Assembly: GCF_010729485.1 (NCBI RefSeq)
Contig: NZ_AP022609.1
Location: forward strand, 372,001 to 436,000
DNA from: Mycolicibacter hiberniae
GTDB taxonomy: Bacteria; Actinomycetota; Actinomycetes; Mycobacteriales; Mycobacteriaceae
DNA length: 64,000 nucleotides
Direction: 5' to 3'
Shown: positions 15,043 through 23,335 of the stretch, piece by piece
Layout: every line of letters starts with the position of its first letter
Position numbering within the stretch: position 1 is the stretch's first letter
Program-made: the position numbers and the translations under genes
Notes under the pieces: generated by a model
The model's database searches: none
Told to the model about the DNA's origin: nothing
Seen by the model: only the letters and a program-made list of their open reading frames with translations

Positions 15043-16020
15043 ATGGGTGACGATGGACCGGTGCGATGGGTGACCTATCGAAGCGAAGACGGGCAGCGTA
15101 CCGGCGTACTCAACGGCGACGTGATCCATGCGGTGGCGCCCGGCGTGACATTGTTGGAGCTGATCCGGCTCGGCCCGGACGGGCTGCACGAGGCCGGCGA
15201 GCGGGCGCTGAGCGCACCGGCGGCGACAGAGCGGATCTCGGCGGTGTCGCTGATGGCTCCGATACCGCGCCCGCCGTCGATCCGCGACAGTCTGGGCTTC
15301 TTGGACCACATGCGCAACTGCCTGGCGGCCACCGGCCGAAGCCCCGTCCTCGACGACGCGTGGTACCGCATCCCGGCTTTCTACTTTGCCTGCCCGGCAA
15401 CGGTGCTGGGTCCCTATGACGATGTCTCCATGGCCCCCGGCAGCGTCTGTCAGGACTTCGAACTGGAGATCGCCGCGGTGATCGGCACCGCCGGGGCGAA
15501 CCTGTCGGTGGCCCAGGCGGAGCAGGCCATCATCGGCTACACCATTTTCAACGACTGGTCCGCGCGGGATCTGCAGGCGCAGGAGGGAGTTTTGGCGATC
15601 GGGCAGGCCAAGGGCAAAGACAGCGGTGTGACGCTTGGGCCCTGTCTGGTCACGCCCGATGAGCTGGAGCCCTACCGCAGCAACGGCAGGATCAGCCTGC
15701 AGGCCACCGCGACCGTCAACGACGTGATCGTGGGAACCGGATCGACCGGCGCCATGGACTGGAGCTTCGGCGAGATCATCAGCTACGCCGCCCGTGGGGT
15801 TCCGTTGGAGCCCGGTGACGTCTTCGGATCGGGCACCGTACCCACCTGCACGCTGCTGGAGCATCTGGACCCGGCTGCGCCGCAACAGTTTCCAGGATGG
15901 CTTGGTGACGGCGACGTCGTGACCCTGCAGGTGCAGGGCCTGGGGGAGCTGCGCCAGACGGTACGGGCCAGCGCTGCGCCGATACCGCTGGCGGAGCGCC
16001 CGCGGCCCGCGACGGGCTAG
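15043..16020 (+). CDS. fumarylacetoacetate hydrolase-family protein
   Basis: 325 residues. The FAH fold core starts near 125, with the metal-ligand segment QDFELEIAAVIG, then IFNDWSARDLQ, GPCLVTPDEL and FGSGTVPTC, a typical layout for the family (hydrolysis, isomerisation or decarboxylation of oxo-acids in aromatic catabolism). M. tuberculosis Rv0939, in the same place next to ligD, is described as a fusion containing such a domain; here it is stand-alone. The start is probably ATG 15043, which lacks a strong ribosome site; a GTG nearby is possible. It ends tail-to-tail with the GH5 gene, sharing CTAG. Confidence 0.85.
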   Translation: MGDDGPVRWVTYRSEDGQRTGVLNGDVIHAVAPGVTLLELIRLGPDGLHEAGERALSAPAATERISAVSLMAPIPRPPSIRDSLGFLDHMRNCLAATGRSPVLDDAWYRIPAFYFACPATVLGPYDDVSMAPGSVCQDFELEIAAVIGTAGANLSVAQAEQAIIGYTIFNDWSARDLQAQEGVLAIGQAKGKDSGVTLGPCLVTPDELEPYRSNGRISLQATATVNDVIVGTGSTGAMDWSFGEIISYAARGVPLEPGDVFGSGTVPTCTLLEHLDPAAPQQFPGWLGDGDVVTLQVQGLGELRQTVRASAAPIPLAERPRPATG

Positions 16021-18128
16021 GTCCGGACCAACGTGACGGTGATGGTGGAGGTGTCGCCGTTGGAGTCGATGGTCAGGATGGGGGCATTGGGTGCCGAGGT
16101 GACGGTTCCGCCGGTAACGGTTACGGCGTAGCCGCCGGGGAAGTGGTTGGGCGGCACCGAGATGGCGGTCTCTGAGCCGGCTCCGAAGGTGCCTGAGCCG
16201 TCGACGCGGTCGGTGGTGTAGCTGAAGCTGAACTCGCCGTTGTTGAAGGACAGTGCGGTGGGCGTGCCCGAGATCATCTGCGGGTAGGGCTGGGCCAGCA
16301 GGTCGAGTTTGCCCCAGTTGACGTTGTCGCCGACCGGGGGCTGGCTCGGGTCGTAGACCAGCGCCTGGTCTTCCGGCGAGGCACTGGTGATGTCCTTGCC
16401 GGTGTAGGCCCAGGCGGCCCAGCCGGACAGGTACTGGTTGGAGGACTGCAGGCTGGCGTCGATGGCGCCGAGGTTGTTGGTGGCCCCGAACTCGCTCAGC
16501 CACCCCGGAACGTTGTTCTCCTCCATGTAATCGGTTGCGTAACCGAACACGATGTCGGCGTTCCAGTCGCAGCCGATGCTCAGGCCGGGAATCAGCGACG
16601 TGGTGAGGCAGTAGTGGTGGAAGGAGAACACCGAGTTCTCGTCTTGCACCGGGCCCATATGCGTGGGCACCGGCAGGCTGCCGAACAGGGTGTTGGGTTC
16701 GAAGAACACCGTCTTGTTCGGGTCGACGGAGCGAATGGCTGCGGTGATCTGGTCGTAGAACGGCACGAGTTGCTGGGTGTCGAAGTAGGGGTTGCCCAAG
16801 ATGCTGCCCAGAGCCTGCGATCCGGCCCACGGCTCGTTCATGATCTCGTAGCCGGCGACGTTCTCGTTGCCCTTGAAGTAGTCGGCGACCGCCTGCCACA
16901 TCAACCCGTAGTGATTCTGCAAGCCGATGCCATCGGGAGCCTTATCGTTGCCCCAGAACGCATCCCAGGCGTAGTTCTGCGCCGGGCTCACCGGGTAAGT
17001 CCCCGGGAAGCCCACGCCGATGTGGGGCAGTCCACCGGTCAGAACTGCCCAGTCGGGGGCGCCCTCGCCGCCGAAGGCCTCGCTGTACAGATCTTGGTGC
17101 ATGTCCAGGACGACCAGGATGTTGTGGCGGCCCAGGATTTCGACGGTGTTTTCGATGGAGGCCAGGTAGTCGTAGTCGATGACGCCGGGTTCGGGTTGCA
17201 CGCCGGCCCAGATGACGCCCAGGCGCACGACGTTGAATCCGTTGGCGGCCAGGAAGGCTGCGTCGTCTTCGTCGAAACCGGCCGCGGACGGCTCGTAGGG
17301 TGGGATCTTGTAGACCTGGTTGAGTCCGCGCAGCATGACGACCTGGCCGTCGCCGTTGGTGAGCCAGCCGTTGGAGACCTCCACCGGCGGTGGAACGGTG
17401 CCGGTGAAGCCGCCGGGCAGGGCACCGAAGTGGCCTACGTCGCCGTGGGTGCCGTAGAGCAGTCCGGCGGTGCCGCCGACTCCGCCGAGTGCGGGCAGCC
17501 CGGTCAGGGCTGCGCCGTCGCCGGCGTCGCCGCCGTTGCCGCCGTGGCCCCACAGCCACCCGCCGTCGCCGCCGTCACCGCCGACGGCCCCGGTCCCGCC
17601 GTCGCCGCCGGCTCCGCCGTTGCCGAACAGTCCCAGGGCGGCGCCGCCGGCGCCGCCGGCGACGCCGTCGGTGGTGCTGCTCCAGCCGGCGCCGCCGTCA
17701 CCGAACAGCCAGCCGCCGTTGCCGCCGTCGGGGTTGGCCTCGGTGCCGTCGGCGCCGTTGCCGATGACCGTCGACCCGAACAGGGTGTTGATGACGCCGT
17801 TGACCTGGCTGCCCAGTTGACTGTCGATCCATTGCTGACCGGCGTCGTGCAGTACTGCGTAGAGGTCCAGGTTCAGGGCGGGCCCGGGTTCGGCCAGTGC
17901 GCCGAAGGCGGCATCCCAGTGGGCCGAGGACAGGAACGCATCCCAGGCTGAGGCGTCGAACAGGGCGCCGCCGTCGAGGTCGCCTGCGGCGGTGACGAAC
18001 GGCGAGATCAGCATGTCCATCATGTCGTCGAAATCGGCGTGTGCGGGCGCCGAGATCGGGGCGATCGCCAGGAATGCAGCTACTCCGACGGCCTTGGTGC
18101 CCACAACCGTGCTGCGGCGACGAGACAT
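16017..18128 (-). CDS. secreted GH5 glycoside hydrolase, endoglycoceramidase-like, with PGRS-like Gly-rich region (copy 1)
   Basis: 703 residues from ATG 18128; a TTG nine bases upstream abuts the AGAAGGG ribosome site and is unlikely. Layout: signal peptide 1-31 (RRR, hydrophobic stretch, cleavage at AHA|D); an alpha-helical segment to about 120; a PE_PGRS-like glycine-rich stretch (~122-232) rich in GGAGG/GGDGG; a GH5 barrel from about 250; a beta-rich C-terminal domain from about 600. The barrel shows endoglycoceramidase-type VMLRGLNQVYKIPPY, DMHQD, acid/base E432 in IMNEPW, FSFHHYC, and nucleophile E546 in LSEFGATNN. It would hydrolyse glycolipid or beta-glycoside bonds outside the membrane; the substrate is not known. 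It lacks a PE domain despite the PGRS-like region. It is one of a tandem pair. Confidence 0.85.
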   Translation of the reverse strand: MSRRRSTVVGTKAVGVAAFLAIAPISAPAHADFDDMMDMLISPFVTAAGDLDGGALFDASAWDAFLSSAHWDAAFGALAEPGPALNLDLYAVLHDAGQQWIDSQLGSQVNGVINTLFGSTVIGNGADGTEANPDGGNGGWLFGDGGAGWSSTTDGVAGGAGGAALGLFGNGGAGGDGGTGAVGGDGGDGGWLWGHGGNGGDAGDGAALTGLPALGGVGGTAGLLYGTHGDVGHFGALPGGFTGTVPPPVEVSNGWLTNGDGQVVMLRGLNQVYKIPPYEPSAAGFDEDDAAFLAANGFNVVRLGVIWAGVQPEPGVIDYDYLASIENTVEILGRHNILVVLDMHQDLYSEAFGGEGAPDWAVLTGGLPHIGVGFPGTYPVSPAQNYAWDAFWGNDKAPDGIGLQNHYGLMWQAVADYFKGNENVAGYEIMNEPWAGSQALGSILGNPYFDTQQLVPFYDQITAAIRSVDPNKTVFFEPNTLFGSLPVPTHMGPVQDENSVFSFHHYCLTTSLIPGLSIGCDWNADIVFGYATDYMEENNVPGWLSEFGATNNLGAIDASLQSSNQYLSGWAAWAYTGKDITSASPEDQALVYDPSQPPVGDNVNWGKLDLLAQPYPQMISGTPTALSFNNGEFSFSYTTDRVDGSGTFGAGSETAISVPPNHFPGGYAVTVTGGTVTSAPNAPILTIDSNGDTSTITVTLVRT

Positions 18129-18258
18129 CGCGACCAACCCTTCTCGCGGACAAACCCGATTCTGAAGCCTGTCTGAGAAAGGTAAACGACTTACTTAGCC
18201 TACGCAAGGTAGCGGCGCGGGCCGGTGCGGCGGTCGTCACCGCACCGGCCCGGCGCTG

Positions 18259-20370
18259 TCAGTCCTTGGCGGTGACGGTCACATTGACGGTCGTGGCGCC
18301 GGCGCTGGAGCTGATGGTCAACAGGGGGGCGTCAGCGCCTGAGGTGACCTCGCCGCCGGTCACGGTGACGGTGTAGCCGTTGGGATACTGGCCGGCCGGC
18401 ACTGAGATGACGGTCTCGGATCCGGCGTCGAAGATCCCGGTGCCGTCGGCGCGTTCGGTGGAGTAACTGAACGACAGGACGCCGTCGTTGAAGGACAAGC
18501 CGGTGGGGATGCCCGAGATCATCTGCGGGTAGGGCTGCGCCAGCAGGTCGAGTTTGTCCCAGTTGACGTTGTCGCCGACCGGGGGCTGGCTCGGGTCGTA
18601 GACCAGCGCCTGGTCCTGCGGCGACGTGCTGGTGATGTCGTTGCCGGTGTAGGCCCATTCGGTCCAGCCGAACAGGTACCGGTTGGCCGCCTGCAGGCTC
18701 GCACCGATGGTCGGCAGGTTGTTGGTGGCGCCGAACTCGCTGAGCAACGCCGGGATGTTGTTGCGTTGCGCGTAGTCCATCGCGTTCGCGAACACGACAT
18801 CGGCATTCCAGTCGCAACCGAAGCTGAAGTCGGCGAACAGTGCATTGACCATGCAGTAGTGGTGGAAGGAGAAGACCGTGTTCGGGTCGTCGACCCTGCC
18901 CAGGTGCGTGGCCACCGGCAGGCTTGCCTCCAGCGTCGTCGGCCCGAAGAACACCGGCTTGTTGGGGTCGACGGAGCGAATGGCCGTGTCGATCTGGTTG
19001 TAGAACGGGGTCAGCTGCTGGGTGTCGAAGTACCGGTTGCCCAGCAGGCTTCCCAGCCAGTGCGTGCCCGCCCACGGCTCGTTGATGATCTCGTAGCCGG
19101 CGACGTTCTCGTTGCCCTTGAAGTAATCGGCGACCGCCTGCCACATCACCCCGTAGTGATTCTGCAGTCCGATCCCCGAAGCATGGGTGTTGCCCCAGAA
19201 CGCATCCCAGGCATAGTTCTGTGCGGGGCTGACGAAGTAGCTGAACGGGAAGCCGACGTCGAAGTTCGGCAGTCCGCCGGTGAAGGTGGCCCATTCCGGG
19301 GCGCCGTCGCCGCCGAAAGCACCACCGTAGAGATCCTGGTGCATATCGAGGATGGCGACGATGTTGTACCGGCCCAGGATTTCGACGGTGTTTTCGATGG
19401 AGGCCAGGTAGTCGTAGTCGATGACGCCGGGTTCGGGTTGCACGCCGGCCCAGATGACGCCCAGGCGCACGACGTTGAATCCGTTGGCGGCCAGGAAGGC
19501 TGCGTCGTCTTCGTCGAAACCGGCCGCGGACGGCTCGTAGGGTGGGATCTTGTAGACCTGGTTGAGTCCGCGCAGCATGACGACCTGGCCGTCGCCGTTG
19601 GTGAGCCAGCCGTTGGAGACCTCCACCGGCGGTGGAACGGTGCCGGTGAAGCCGCCGGGCAGGGCACCGAAGTGGCCTACGTCGCCGTGGGTGCCGTAGA
19701 GCAGTCCGGCGGTGCCGCCGACTCCGCCGAGTGCGGGCAGCCCGGTCAGGGCTGCGCCGTCGCCGGCGTCGCCGCCGTTGCCGCCGTGGCCCCACAGCCA
19801 CCCGCCGTCGCCGCCGTCACCGCCGACGGCCCCGGTCCCGCCGTCGCCGCCGGCTCCGCCGTTGCCGAACAGTCCCAGGGCGGCGCCACCGGCGCCGCCG
19901 GCGACGCCGTCGGTGGTGCTGCTCCAGCCGGTGCCGCCGTCACCGAACAGCCAGCCGCCGTTGCCGCCGTCGGGGTTGTCCTCGGTGCCGTCGGCGCCGT
20001 TGCCGATGACCGTCGATCCGAACAGGGTGTTGATGACGCCGTTGACCTGGCTGCCCAGTTGACTGTCGATCCATTGCTGACCGGCGTCGTGCAGTGCCGC
20101 GTAAAGGTCGATGCCCAGGGCGGGGCCCGGCTCGGCCAGTGCGCCGAAGGCGGCATCCCAGTGGGCGGCGGACAAGAACGCATCCCAGGCTGAGGCGTCG
20201 AACAGGGCGTCGCCGTCGAGGACGCCCTCGGTGGTGACAAACGGCTCTACCAGCGCGTCCCACATGTCCTCGAAATCGGCGTGCGCGGGCGCGGAGAGCG
20301 GGGCGATCGCCAAGAACGCGACGACTCCAGCGGCCTTGGTGCCCACAACCGTGCTGCGGCGACGAGACAT
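18259..20370 (-). CDS. secreted GH5 glycoside hydrolase, endoglycoceramidase-like, with PGRS-like Gly-rich region (copy 2)
   Basis: 703 residues, paralogue of the gene immediately downstream and upstream of it in transcription order (121 bases between them). It has the same layout: signal peptide to AHA, helical segment, Gly-rich region, GH5 barrel with E431 (IINEPW) and E545 (LSEFGATNN), and C-terminal beta domain. Residues about 93-333 are almost identical to copy 1, while the signal/helical part and the substrate-facing barrel loops differ (for example the segments after DMHQDLY and around the HHYC motif). That suggests different substrates or a different optimum behind a homogenised linker. 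The upstream region is also duplicated. Confidence 0.85.
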   Translation of the reverse strand: MSRRRSTVVGTKAAGVVAFLAIAPLSAPAHADFEDMWDALVEPFVTTEGVLDGDALFDASAWDAFLSAAHWDAAFGALAEPGPALGIDLYAALHDAGQQWIDSQLGSQVNGVINTLFGSTVIGNGADGTEDNPDGGNGGWLFGDGGTGWSSTTDGVAGGAGGAALGLFGNGGAGGDGGTGAVGGDGGDGGWLWGHGGNGGDAGDGAALTGLPALGGVGGTAGLLYGTHGDVGHFGALPGGFTGTVPPPVEVSNGWLTNGDGQVVMLRGLNQVYKIPPYEPSAAGFDEDDAAFLAANGFNVVRLGVIWAGVQPEPGVIDYDYLASIENTVEILGRYNIVAILDMHQDLYGGAFGGDGAPEWATFTGGLPNFDVGFPFSYFVSPAQNYAWDAFWGNTHASGIGLQNHYGVMWQAVADYFKGNENVAGYEIINEPWAGTHWLGSLLGNRYFDTQQLTPFYNQIDTAIRSVDPNKPVFFGPTTLEASLPVATHLGRVDDPNTVFSFHHYCMVNALFADFSFGCDWNADVVFANAMDYAQRNNIPALLSEFGATNNLPTIGASLQAANRYLFGWTEWAYTGNDITSTSPQDQALVYDPSQPPVGDNVNWDKLDLLAQPYPQMISGIPTGLSFNDGVLSFSYSTERADGTGIFDAGSETVISVPAGQYPNGYTVTVTGGEVTSGADAPLLTISSSAGATTVNVTVTAKD

Positions 20371-20477
20371 CGCGACCAACCCTTCTCGCGGACAACCAGA
20401 TTTCTGAAGCCTGTCTGAGAAAGGTAAATGAGCTGCTTAGCGTGACGCAAGGGCGCCGCGGAAAAGGCGCGGTTTTG

Positions 20478-21725: not shown

Positions 21726-22436
21726 TTACCTTTGCGGCGCTGTCGCGATCTGGACATCCTCCAGAAGAAACGGGGGGAAACCGGCAGCGCCGAGCACTGT
21801 CAGCGTGCCCCACGGGGTCCGCTCGCAGATGCGGCCCTGCGCGGCGTGCTCGCCGATCCGGATGCTGACCGGCGAGCCGGTGACGCCGGTACCGGGAATA
21901 TCGGCGTAAAACATTCCCTGCCAGTGATATTGGCCGTCGATCGGATCGAAGTGTCCGCTCAGGCGCACGCGGGTCGGGTACTCGGCGCCGTCGTGCGTCA
22001 GCACCGCCGGCCCGTCATAGATTTCCTCATCGGCGCTCACCGAACCGGTGAGGTAGAACCGGGACAGTCCCCGGGTCGGCAGCAGCCGGTGTACCCGCAG
22101 CCGGGCAGCGCGCGACTCGATGCGGCTGGCTCCGCTGCGCCGCATCGCTTCCAGGAGCCGGGTCACGTACCGGGCCTGCCGGCGAGTGTGCGGGCCGGGA
22201 ACCTGAAACCGGTTCGGGAGGCCGTGCCGCGCGACGACCCCGTCGGCTGCGGCGGCGGTGCCGATCAGCACCCGCGCTTTCAGCGTCTCGCCGTCGACGG
22301 TGGTCACCGTCCACGTGTCGGTGGCGCTGTCGAATCCGGTGTGCGCCGGATCGACGGCGCGGGCACCCTCGACCAACCCGTGCAGGGGCGCCGGGTCGCC
22401 CAGCACCAGCACGTCGATGAGGTGGTCGCGGCTCAC
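21726..22436 (-). CDS. DUF4873-type protein, partner of the diiron oxygenase
   Basis: 236 residues when started at the GTG at 22436, which overlaps the stop of the upstream diiron oxygenase as GTGA; this coupling decides the start over a longer frame. The first ~110 residues (DHLIDVLVLGDPAPLHGLVE, then WTVTTVDGETLKARVLIGTA) look like a degenerate piece of a flavin monooxygenase. The last ~100 (DGPAVLTHDGAEYPTRVRLS, then HFDPIDGQYHWQGMFY) match the DUF4873 domain found at the end of some actinobacterial monooxygenases. It has no nucleotide-binding GxGxxG, so it is probably not an oxidase itself. A role assisting the AurF-like enzyme is inferred only from the overlap. Confidence 0.6.
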   Translation of the reverse strand: MSRDHLIDVLVLGDPAPLHGLVEGARAVDPAHTGFDSATDTWTVTTVDGETLKARVLIGTAAAADGVVARHGLPNRFQVPGPHTRRQARYVTRLLEAMRRSGASRIESRAARLRVHRLLPTRGLSRFYLTGSVSADEEIYDGPAVLTHDGAEYPTRVRLSGHFDPIDGQYHWQGMFYADIPGTGVTGSPVSIRIGEHAAQGRICERTPWGTLTVLGAAGFPPFLLEDVQIATAPQR

Positions 22437-23335
22437 AGGAACCCGGCCCGCCGCCACATCCGCCGGGCCAGCCCGCCCATGAGGCCGACTTCGGTGAAGA
22501 ATGCGGCCAGCGGCGCGAACGAAGCGCGGGATGCCGCCTGAAAATGCGGATTGGCCCGCGCCACCCGGCGGGCTTCGCGGCCGTCGAGCCCAGCCCGGGT
22601 GTAGACCACCGGCAGGGTGAACAGGTGCCGGTAGAACGGGCCGCCGACGCCCTGCAGGTTGGCCAGCAGCATGCGACGGTAACGAGACATCCCCGGCACG
22701 GTGCGCCGCAGCCCGTCGCGGGCGTACTGGATATGGCGGGCCTCCTCGGTCACATGGATGCGCATCACCCGCCGCACGATCGGCTGCAGGTCCGGGTCAT
22801 CGAGGATCTGGCGCTGCAGCGCGTCGAAGATCTCTTCGCCGACCAGCGCGGCTCCCCACAGGATGGGGCCGCGGAACAGGAAGGGCAGCGCGTTGATCAC
22901 GATGCGCTCGTGCAGTCGCGGTCGTACCGGCACGCCGCCGATACGGTCGATGGTCTTGCCGAACATCAGCATGTGGCGGGTTTCGTCGCCCAGTTCGGTC
23001 AGCGAGTAGTGGGTGCTGGGCGCGGTGGGGTTCTTGTGCAGCATGTCGCGCAGCAGCGCCTGGTTGAGGATGTTCTCAAACCAGATGCCGGCCGACAGCA
23101 CGTTGACCAGCTCCTGGCGCGACATCTCGATCTGCTGTTCGCGGGTCATCGCGTCCCACAATGCGGTGCCGTAGAGCGTGCACATCCTGGGCGGCAGGAA
23201 GTACTTGTTGGCCTCCAGCGGTGCGTCCCAGTCGATGTCGACCACCGGGGCGTAGGACTTCTTCACCGAGCCCTTCAGGAGGCGTTCGGCGAATTCCTCC
23301 CGGGTCGGTCCGCTCGGTCGCACGCTAGCCGTCAT
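22433..23335 (-). CDS. AurF-type diiron oxygenase
   Basis: 300 residues of the p-aminobenzoate N-oxygenase (AurF) family, ferritin-like non-haem diiron enzymes. Metal-ligand motifs run in order: ENILNQALL, LGDETRHMLMF (ExxRH), GEEIFDALQ, and VTEEARHIQYAR (ExxRH). The family oxidises amines or aliphatic carbons; the substrate here is unknown. It is the first gene of a two-gene operon with the DUF4873 protein. It is transcribed from a near-consensus promoter (23365-23393) beside a 25-base palindrome and diverges from a large LuxR regulator. Confidence 0.85.
   Translation of the reverse strand: MTASVRPSGPTREEFAERLLKGSVKKSYAPVVDIDWDAPLEANKYFLPPRMCTLYGTALWDAMTREQQIEMSRQELVNVLSAGIWFENILNQALLRDMLHKNPTAPSTHYSLTELGDETRHMLMFGKTIDRIGGVPVRPRLHERIVINALPFLFRGPILWGAALVGEEIFDALQRQILDDPDLQPIVRRVMRIHVTEEARHIQYARDGLRRTVPGMSRYRRMLLANLQGVGGPFYRHLFTLPVVYTRAGLDGREARRVARANPHFQAASRASFAPLAAFFTEVGLMGGLARRMWRRAGFL

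Follow-up and report, generated by a model that had tools for sequence, protein, structure and literature searches.

PGRS domains have so far been defined through PE_PGRS proteins and pathogenicity. Some PE_PGRS proteins end in an enzyme, as does the protease PE_PGRS35/PecA and, we assume, PE_PGRS11; the catalytic members use a PE domain and the type VII secretion system ESX-5. Export modules at the N-terminus can be exchanged: the lipase LipY carries PE in M. tuberculosis and PPE in M. marinum, and both modules use ESX-5 (PMC7028111, in the part available). For the PGRS proteins of M. smegmatis the N-terminus is questionable, and the accessible part of the report leaves PE and export open (PMC11939664). 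The Rhodococcus endoglycoceramidases (EGCases) I and II (GH5; 5ccu, 2osx) are chains without PGRS. Here we analyse a stretch of 64,000 nucleotides from Mycolicibacter hiberniae (NZ_AP022609.1, positions 372,001 to 436,000; hereafter the window), which contains two tandem genes, W1 and W2, each encoding a signal peptide, a PGRS domain and an EGCase-like GH5 barrel. We favour, as rather probable, the reading that W1 and W2 are two isozymes, glycolipid hydrolases of family GH5 that carry PGRS and are exported by a signal peptide, and that PGRS is independent of the export route. The features of both genes are as follows.

16017..18128, minus strand: W1, signal peptide-PGRS-GH5 EGCase-like protein with a type A barrel (open reading frame of 703 aa, ATG at 18128, stop at 16017)
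18036..18128, minus strand: W1 signal peptide, residues 1-31, predicted cleavage AHA↓D (rule-based; AxA↓D invariant in 17/17 PGRS proteins of the own genome)
17769..18035, minus strand: W1 helical segment before PGRS, residues 32-120, with the linker motif at about 88-122 (low-confidence model and linker profile)
17439..17768, minus strand: W1 PGRS domain, about residues 121-230 (PF21526, 57.1 bits; model without helices)
16284..17381, minus strand: W1 GH5 barrel, about residues 250-615 (Pfam, structure model; E432 at 16833-16835, E546 at 16491-16493)
16020..16283, minus strand: W1 GH5_C beta domain, about residues 616-703 (PF18564, 47.7 bits)
18259..20370, minus strand: W2, tandem paralogue with the architecture of W1 and a type B barrel (open reading frame of 703 aa, ATG at 20370, stop at 18259)
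20278..20370, minus strand: W2 signal peptide, residues 1-31 (rule-based; AxA↓D alignment)
19681..20010, minus strand: W2 PGRS domain, about residues 121-230 (PF21526, 56.5 bits)
18529..19623, minus strand: W2 GH5 barrel (Pfam, alignment; E431 at 19078-19080, E545 at 18736-18738)
17128..17645, minus strand: identical tract of 518 nucleotides, W1 copy, codons 162-334 (nucleotide comparison with W2)
19370..19887, minus strand: identical tract of 518 nucleotides, W2 copy (nucleotide comparison with W1)

W1 and W2 resemble the catalytic PE_PGRS proteins in the junction that opens PGRS, in the Pfam family of the domain and in the C-terminal enzyme, and three of those that we read share the linker as well. 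They differ in having a signal peptide and no PE. LipY is a published precedent for one enzyme on interchangeable N-terminal modules, but there both modules use ESX-5, whereas here the swap is between type VII and signal peptide. The likeness to M. smegmatis, as far as the available text goes, is PGRS in a non-pathogenic species with a doubtful PE. Signal-peptide PGRS would answer cases of this type, although the M. smegmatis genes themselves lie outside this analysis.

An earlier note, made from the sequence alone, had proposed that each protein joins a signal peptide, a true PGRS stretch and a GH5 barrel with both catalytic glutamates, and all of this was borne out. Pfam gives 101 bits for W1 and 107 bits for W2 with GH5 (PF00150), 47.7 and 41.9 bits with GH5_C (PF18564), and 57.1 and 56.5 bits with PGRS (PF21526, about residues 122-192), where the cut-off is 27. 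The PGRS family matched none of 14 control genomes, so the match in W1 and W2 is not a chance similarity between Gly-rich sequences. In the structure model of W1 the PGRS region, for which a poly-glycine II sandwich would be expected, has no helices and only isolated strand residues, at a block pLDDT (predicted local distance difference test) of 74-92; the structure alignment (VIA-align) is informative for residues 241-703, with the PGRS part outside. PGRS starts with a non-repetitive junction, IGNGADGT..P.GG.GGWLFGDGG, which is mostly invariant among 33 aligned proteins and has a like counterpart in PE_PGRS proteins. Hydrophobic WLFG and WLWG loops recur in PGRS. According to the accessible part of PMC9436101, PGRS domains are thought to touch the membrane, and PE_PGRS proteins to be anchored as in a 'sailing' model. 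The idea of anchoring is thus already known for PE_PGRS proteins; the novelty here lies in the enzyme and its export route rather than in the anchor.

The first 31 residues of W1 and W2 contain four basic residues, then a hydrophobic core and then an AHA↓D site, i.e. by our rules an n-h-c signal peptide with an AxA site, as expected of Sec-exported proteins. Neither protein matches the PE domain (PF00934) in Pfam at E ≤ 1, and the YxxxD/E type VII motif is absent from their first 130 mature residues. The own genome is one contig of 4,396,654 bases, in which we read 17 PGRS proteins (all 16 matches to PF21526 included). All 17 have a signal-peptide-like start, and AxA↓D is invariant in their alignment; YxxxD/E occurs in six of them at scattered positions and is not conserved. 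We rejected two other routes for this set: export by Tat, since a pattern search found no twin-arginine motif in the 17 (many orthologues have R-H-R at this position), and anchoring as lipoproteins, since none has a Cys at +1. Together, the N-terminal sequences strongly suggest Sec export of W1 and W2. Behind the predicted cleavage site, the W1 model shows helices at 33-44, in pieces of 53-76, at 89-102 and at 104-117, with a block pLDDT of 44-71.

The absence of PE is a property of the genome's PGRS proteins at large. PF21526 matches 16 places (15 over the cut-off) and PE matches 12, and no PE match lies within 25 kb of any of the 16, the nearest being 25 kb off. A model built from the N-termini of the 17 proteins has 20 matches of near-full cover in this genome, 17 of which are its own rows; two others were read and look alike. 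Searching nine of the 17 proteins with Pfam gave six EGCase-like GH5 enzymes (W1 and W2 among them), one PecA-like aspartic protease (PF20729, 267 bits), one DUF2599 protein and one with PGRS alone, and the remaining eight seem to stay rich in Gly up to their ends or to where the stretch stops. The earlier note had treated the two hydrolases as a peculiarity, which proved too narrow: their layout is the rule in the 17 proteins, and the 12 further genomes that we chose (see below) likewise have, as a rule, PGRS without PE.

An ESX-5 component is nevertheless present, as one EccB scores 829 bits against M. xenopi EccB5 and 298 against EccB3. Loss of ESX-5 as the cause of signal-peptide PGRS is therefore not supported (EccB being the ESX-5 part checked). 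With EccB5 and twelve PE domains the type VII route is at least partly there, yet the PGRS proteins read lack PE. One could argue from this that what looks like a signal peptide anchors the protein in the membrane or is a decoy, and that W1 and W2, like other PGRS proteins, are exported by a type VII system, the more so as ESX-5 exports PE_PGRS proteins in M. marinum (PMC4418733, in the portion available). We regard this as highly improbable given the missing PE domain, the unconserved YxxxD/E, the invariant AxA↓D and the signal-peptide-like starts of six of the seven PGRS-like open reading frames from other genera of the family. As a separate observation, two further EccB genes (L014 and L015, own genome 1961769 and 4059617) look ESX-3-like by eye, and the genome may have two ESX-3-type loci.

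The PecA-like protease domain stands behind more than one kind of N-terminus. It occurs behind PE (L059), PE and PGRS (L050, L061 and others) and PPE (L062, L067, L071), and also behind a signal peptide with PGRS (L004/L064, L065), a signal peptide with a long linker (L055, L056, L058) and a signal peptide alone (L053, L057 and others); these layouts were assigned by Pfam for six proteins and by eye for the others. The protease tree holds 26 of 31 matches (two were cut by contig ends, one was short, one weak and one without a locus). On its 23 labelled domains, leaving out three of the 26 with unlabelled N-termini, at least three changes between signal peptide and type VII are needed. The signal-peptide PGRS protease L065 is the sister of a PE_PGRS clade (support 96/95), on a long branch that makes its position unsure. 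L057 (own genome 4138044-4138913) belongs to a clade of PecA-like proteases that have a signal peptide but lack PGRS.

The linker gives a second connection between the two groups. A profile made from the 17 own proteins matches the PE proteins L232-L234 at 31-37 bits, while the best of 900 shuffles reaches 12.4; L232 consists of PE, linker, PGRS and a histidine phosphatase. Since PE is fused to none of the PGRS proteins read in the own genome, the protease domain sits behind PE, PPE or a signal peptide, and some PE proteins carry the linker, two export routes appear to serve PGRS as a module.

The architecture is widespread. Among the best 120 of 952 relatives, 117 combine GH5, PGRS and GH5_C, and none has PE. 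The databases thus hold many proteins with this fusion. A literature search that saw mostly listings and covered few subscription papers and preprints turned up neither signal-peptide PGRS proteins nor an EGCase with PGRS from mycobacteria. A scan with the barrel, in which the best 80 matches gave 78 loci, had as the closest among the matches listed a protein of Mycolicibacter engbaekii (99%). The 78 best loci comprise 54 with signal peptide and PGRS, nine with signal peptide and without PGRS, three with PGRS and no scored signal peptide, four others and eight cut at contig ends; none has PE. The signal-peptide rule used for these counts is crude and named implausible stretches for L191, L205, L224 and L225, open reading frames taken from a point upstream of the true start.

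The enzyme can do without PGRS, as the nine relatives that lack it indicate, and in Mycolicibacterium-type members a long, linker-like Ser/Pro-rich stretch lies between signal peptide and PGRS. Both facts would fit a PGRS that is a mere spacer or solubility tag, on enzymes that are ordinary secreted scavengers of environmental glycosphingolipids and are released to the medium without anchoring. A spacer would hardly account for the conserved junction shared with PE_PGRS proteins, nor for recurring loops like those of the PGRS domains that are proposed to contact the membrane (PMC9436101, same part), and we consider this alternative unlikely, if much less so than type VII export. PGRS-less EGCase-like enzymes, mostly with a plain signal peptide, are found in M. 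palustre, M. alsense, M. interjectum and others (L129-L140, L194, L200, L214); at least one of the genomes with such an enzyme (G284) has PE_PGRS proteins.

Within the genus, the N-terminal model finds matches at E 1e-6 in 74 of 148 genomes, PE_PGRS genomes among them, and a further survey gave matches in 107 of 297 genomes, many through PGRS alone; as at most 21 and at most three candidates per genome were scored, respectively, numbers per genome are lower bounds. Twelve further genomes, chosen by us among earlier matches and not at random, yielded 148 matches to PGRS, 136 of which exceed the cut-off, and 72 to PE, none of them fused. Of the 148, 46 are on contigs without a PE match; among the other 102, for which we computed distances, the two closest pairs are 2.8-2.9 kb apart, and in these PE lies downstream and PGRS scores under the cut-off. 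By contrast, five PE_PGRS-type genomes have a PE domain in 20 of the 21 PGRS loci listed, against none of nine in two other genomes.

Outside the genus, the model matches five of 58 genomes, at eight places in three other genera of the GTDB family. Seven of these eight open reading frames were read: six have signal-peptide-like starts by eye, and none could be placed in L090. Three pass the PGRS cut-off, three are below it and one has no match. Among L090-L093, from these other genera, all but L090 exceed the cut-off of the Pfam PGRS family, and each of the three that do so starts with a signal-peptide-like segment. As signal-peptide-like N-termini precede PGRS in other genera too, we tentatively suggest, with nearly balanced confidence, that PGRS is an old family-wide module of envelope display that first stood on Sec-exported proteins. 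PE_PGRS proteins would have arisen when PE and ESX-5 export replaced the signal peptide, and the PE proteins with the linker would be traces of this.

The enzymatic part is that of a GH5 hydrolase, in which E432 is the predicted acid/base and E546 the predicted nucleophile of W1. With the NCBIfam model of EGCase I (NF051847) W1 scores 249.3 and W2 237.1 bits, against a cut-off of 700. As this cut-off is missed, the substrate may differ, and we class both proteins only as EGCase-like GH5, not as EGCase I; from the modelled fold, a glycolipid substrate is the plausible one. The enzymes might instead act inward, on the bacterium's own glycolipids (e.g. envelope glucosides), as remodelling enzymes, a possibility that we find doubtful and rate slightly above that of a mere spacer. 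A second tandem PGRS-GH5 pair (L001 1456-6417, own genome 2292455-2297416) has lost the nucleophile E546 and four other residues of the GH5 catalytic site (R302, N431, H504 and Y506), and the relatives P0056 and P0061 read like this pair at the acid/base and nucleophile sites. Judging from these residues, such proteins are probably pseudoenzymes that bind glycolipids.

W1 and W2 are identical over 518 nucleotides (codons 162-334), which span PGRS and the front of the barrel, and diverge beyond the tract, with 68-84% identity per block of 30 codons between codons 331 and 570. The earlier note had the paralogues differing mainly in their substrate-facing loops. This did not stand: 36 of 122 residues in beta-to-alpha loops differ, and 37 of 152 elsewhere (p = 0.34), and 7 of 13 type-diagnostic positions are in loops (p = 0.57). 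We built trees with six species having two copies, paired by species name and partly from different assemblies. In the tree of the back (335-600), types A and B, labels that we assigned from barrel features, separate with one change each (support 99/97). In contrast, the tree of the front (91-330) needs six changes of label: W1 and W2 are sisters, as are the M. kokjensenii pair (100/99 each), and the pairs of M. algericus and M. heraklionensis cluster together with one copy of another species. We read these sequence patterns as gene conversion that acted on the anchor and the front of the barrel, and did so recently in at least two lineages, while the two back halves stayed separate.

The reading that we favour can be put as a sequence of steps. 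Sec would take W1 and W2 across the inner membrane, and signal peptidase would cleave at AHA↓DFDD. The short stretch of helices and PGRS would then retain the protein in the envelope, most likely in the mycomembrane, by analogy with what is proposed for PE_PGRS proteins. There, barrel and GH5_C would cut the bond between glycan and lipid of a ceramide-like glycolipid by retaining catalysis, with E432 as acid/base and E546 as nucleophile. PGRS would be carried by signal-peptide proteins here and in many other mycobacteria, and by PE and ESX-5 in PE_PGRS species. Gene conversion would homogenise the fronts of the isozymes and leave the barrel backs as two old, distinct types. As the fronts are homogenised and the backs distinct, one anchor may serve two specificities.

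Several points weigh against this. The model does not explain the path of a Sec-exported protein to the outer face of the mycomembrane. Signal peptides were assigned by rules and by eye, with no trained predictor, and the helical segment before PGRS is modelled at low confidence. The EGCase I cut-off is missed, and nine of the 78 best relatives are enzymes with a signal peptide and no PGRS. Among the 20 PE loci that we read, the linker is strong in only three; one more shows 20.8 bits at another place in its open reading frame, and the remaining 16 reach about 10 bits at most or give no score. In the front tree, grouping by species fails for two of the six pairs (M. longobardus and M. minnesotensis), and our labels in part predetermine how the back tree splits into A and B. 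If PGRS does occur on ordinary signal peptides, its role in anchoring or display becomes separable from PE and ESX-5 and can be tested in harmless species. On sequence grounds W1 and W2 would also be named candidates for the surface hydrolases with which mycobacteria might attack glycolipids.

A block of 27 nucleotides is identical upstream of the W1 and W2 starts (18160-18186 and 20402-20428) and contains a CTCAG-type direct repeat, presumably similar to a response-regulator box. We dropped the idea that the repeat is a promoter element common to these genes, as it occurs in three of 19 upstream regions (W1, W2 and the PGRS-protease gene of the own genome), which is not significant (shuffled mean 0.8, maximum 4). 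Elsewhere in the window, an AurF-type N-oxygenase gene (22433-23335, 335 bits) adjoins a DUF4873 gene and a luciferase-like monooxygenase gene, and the protein encoded at 26557-27093 matches the model of the mycobacterial 4-TMS holin superfamily IV with 96 bits.
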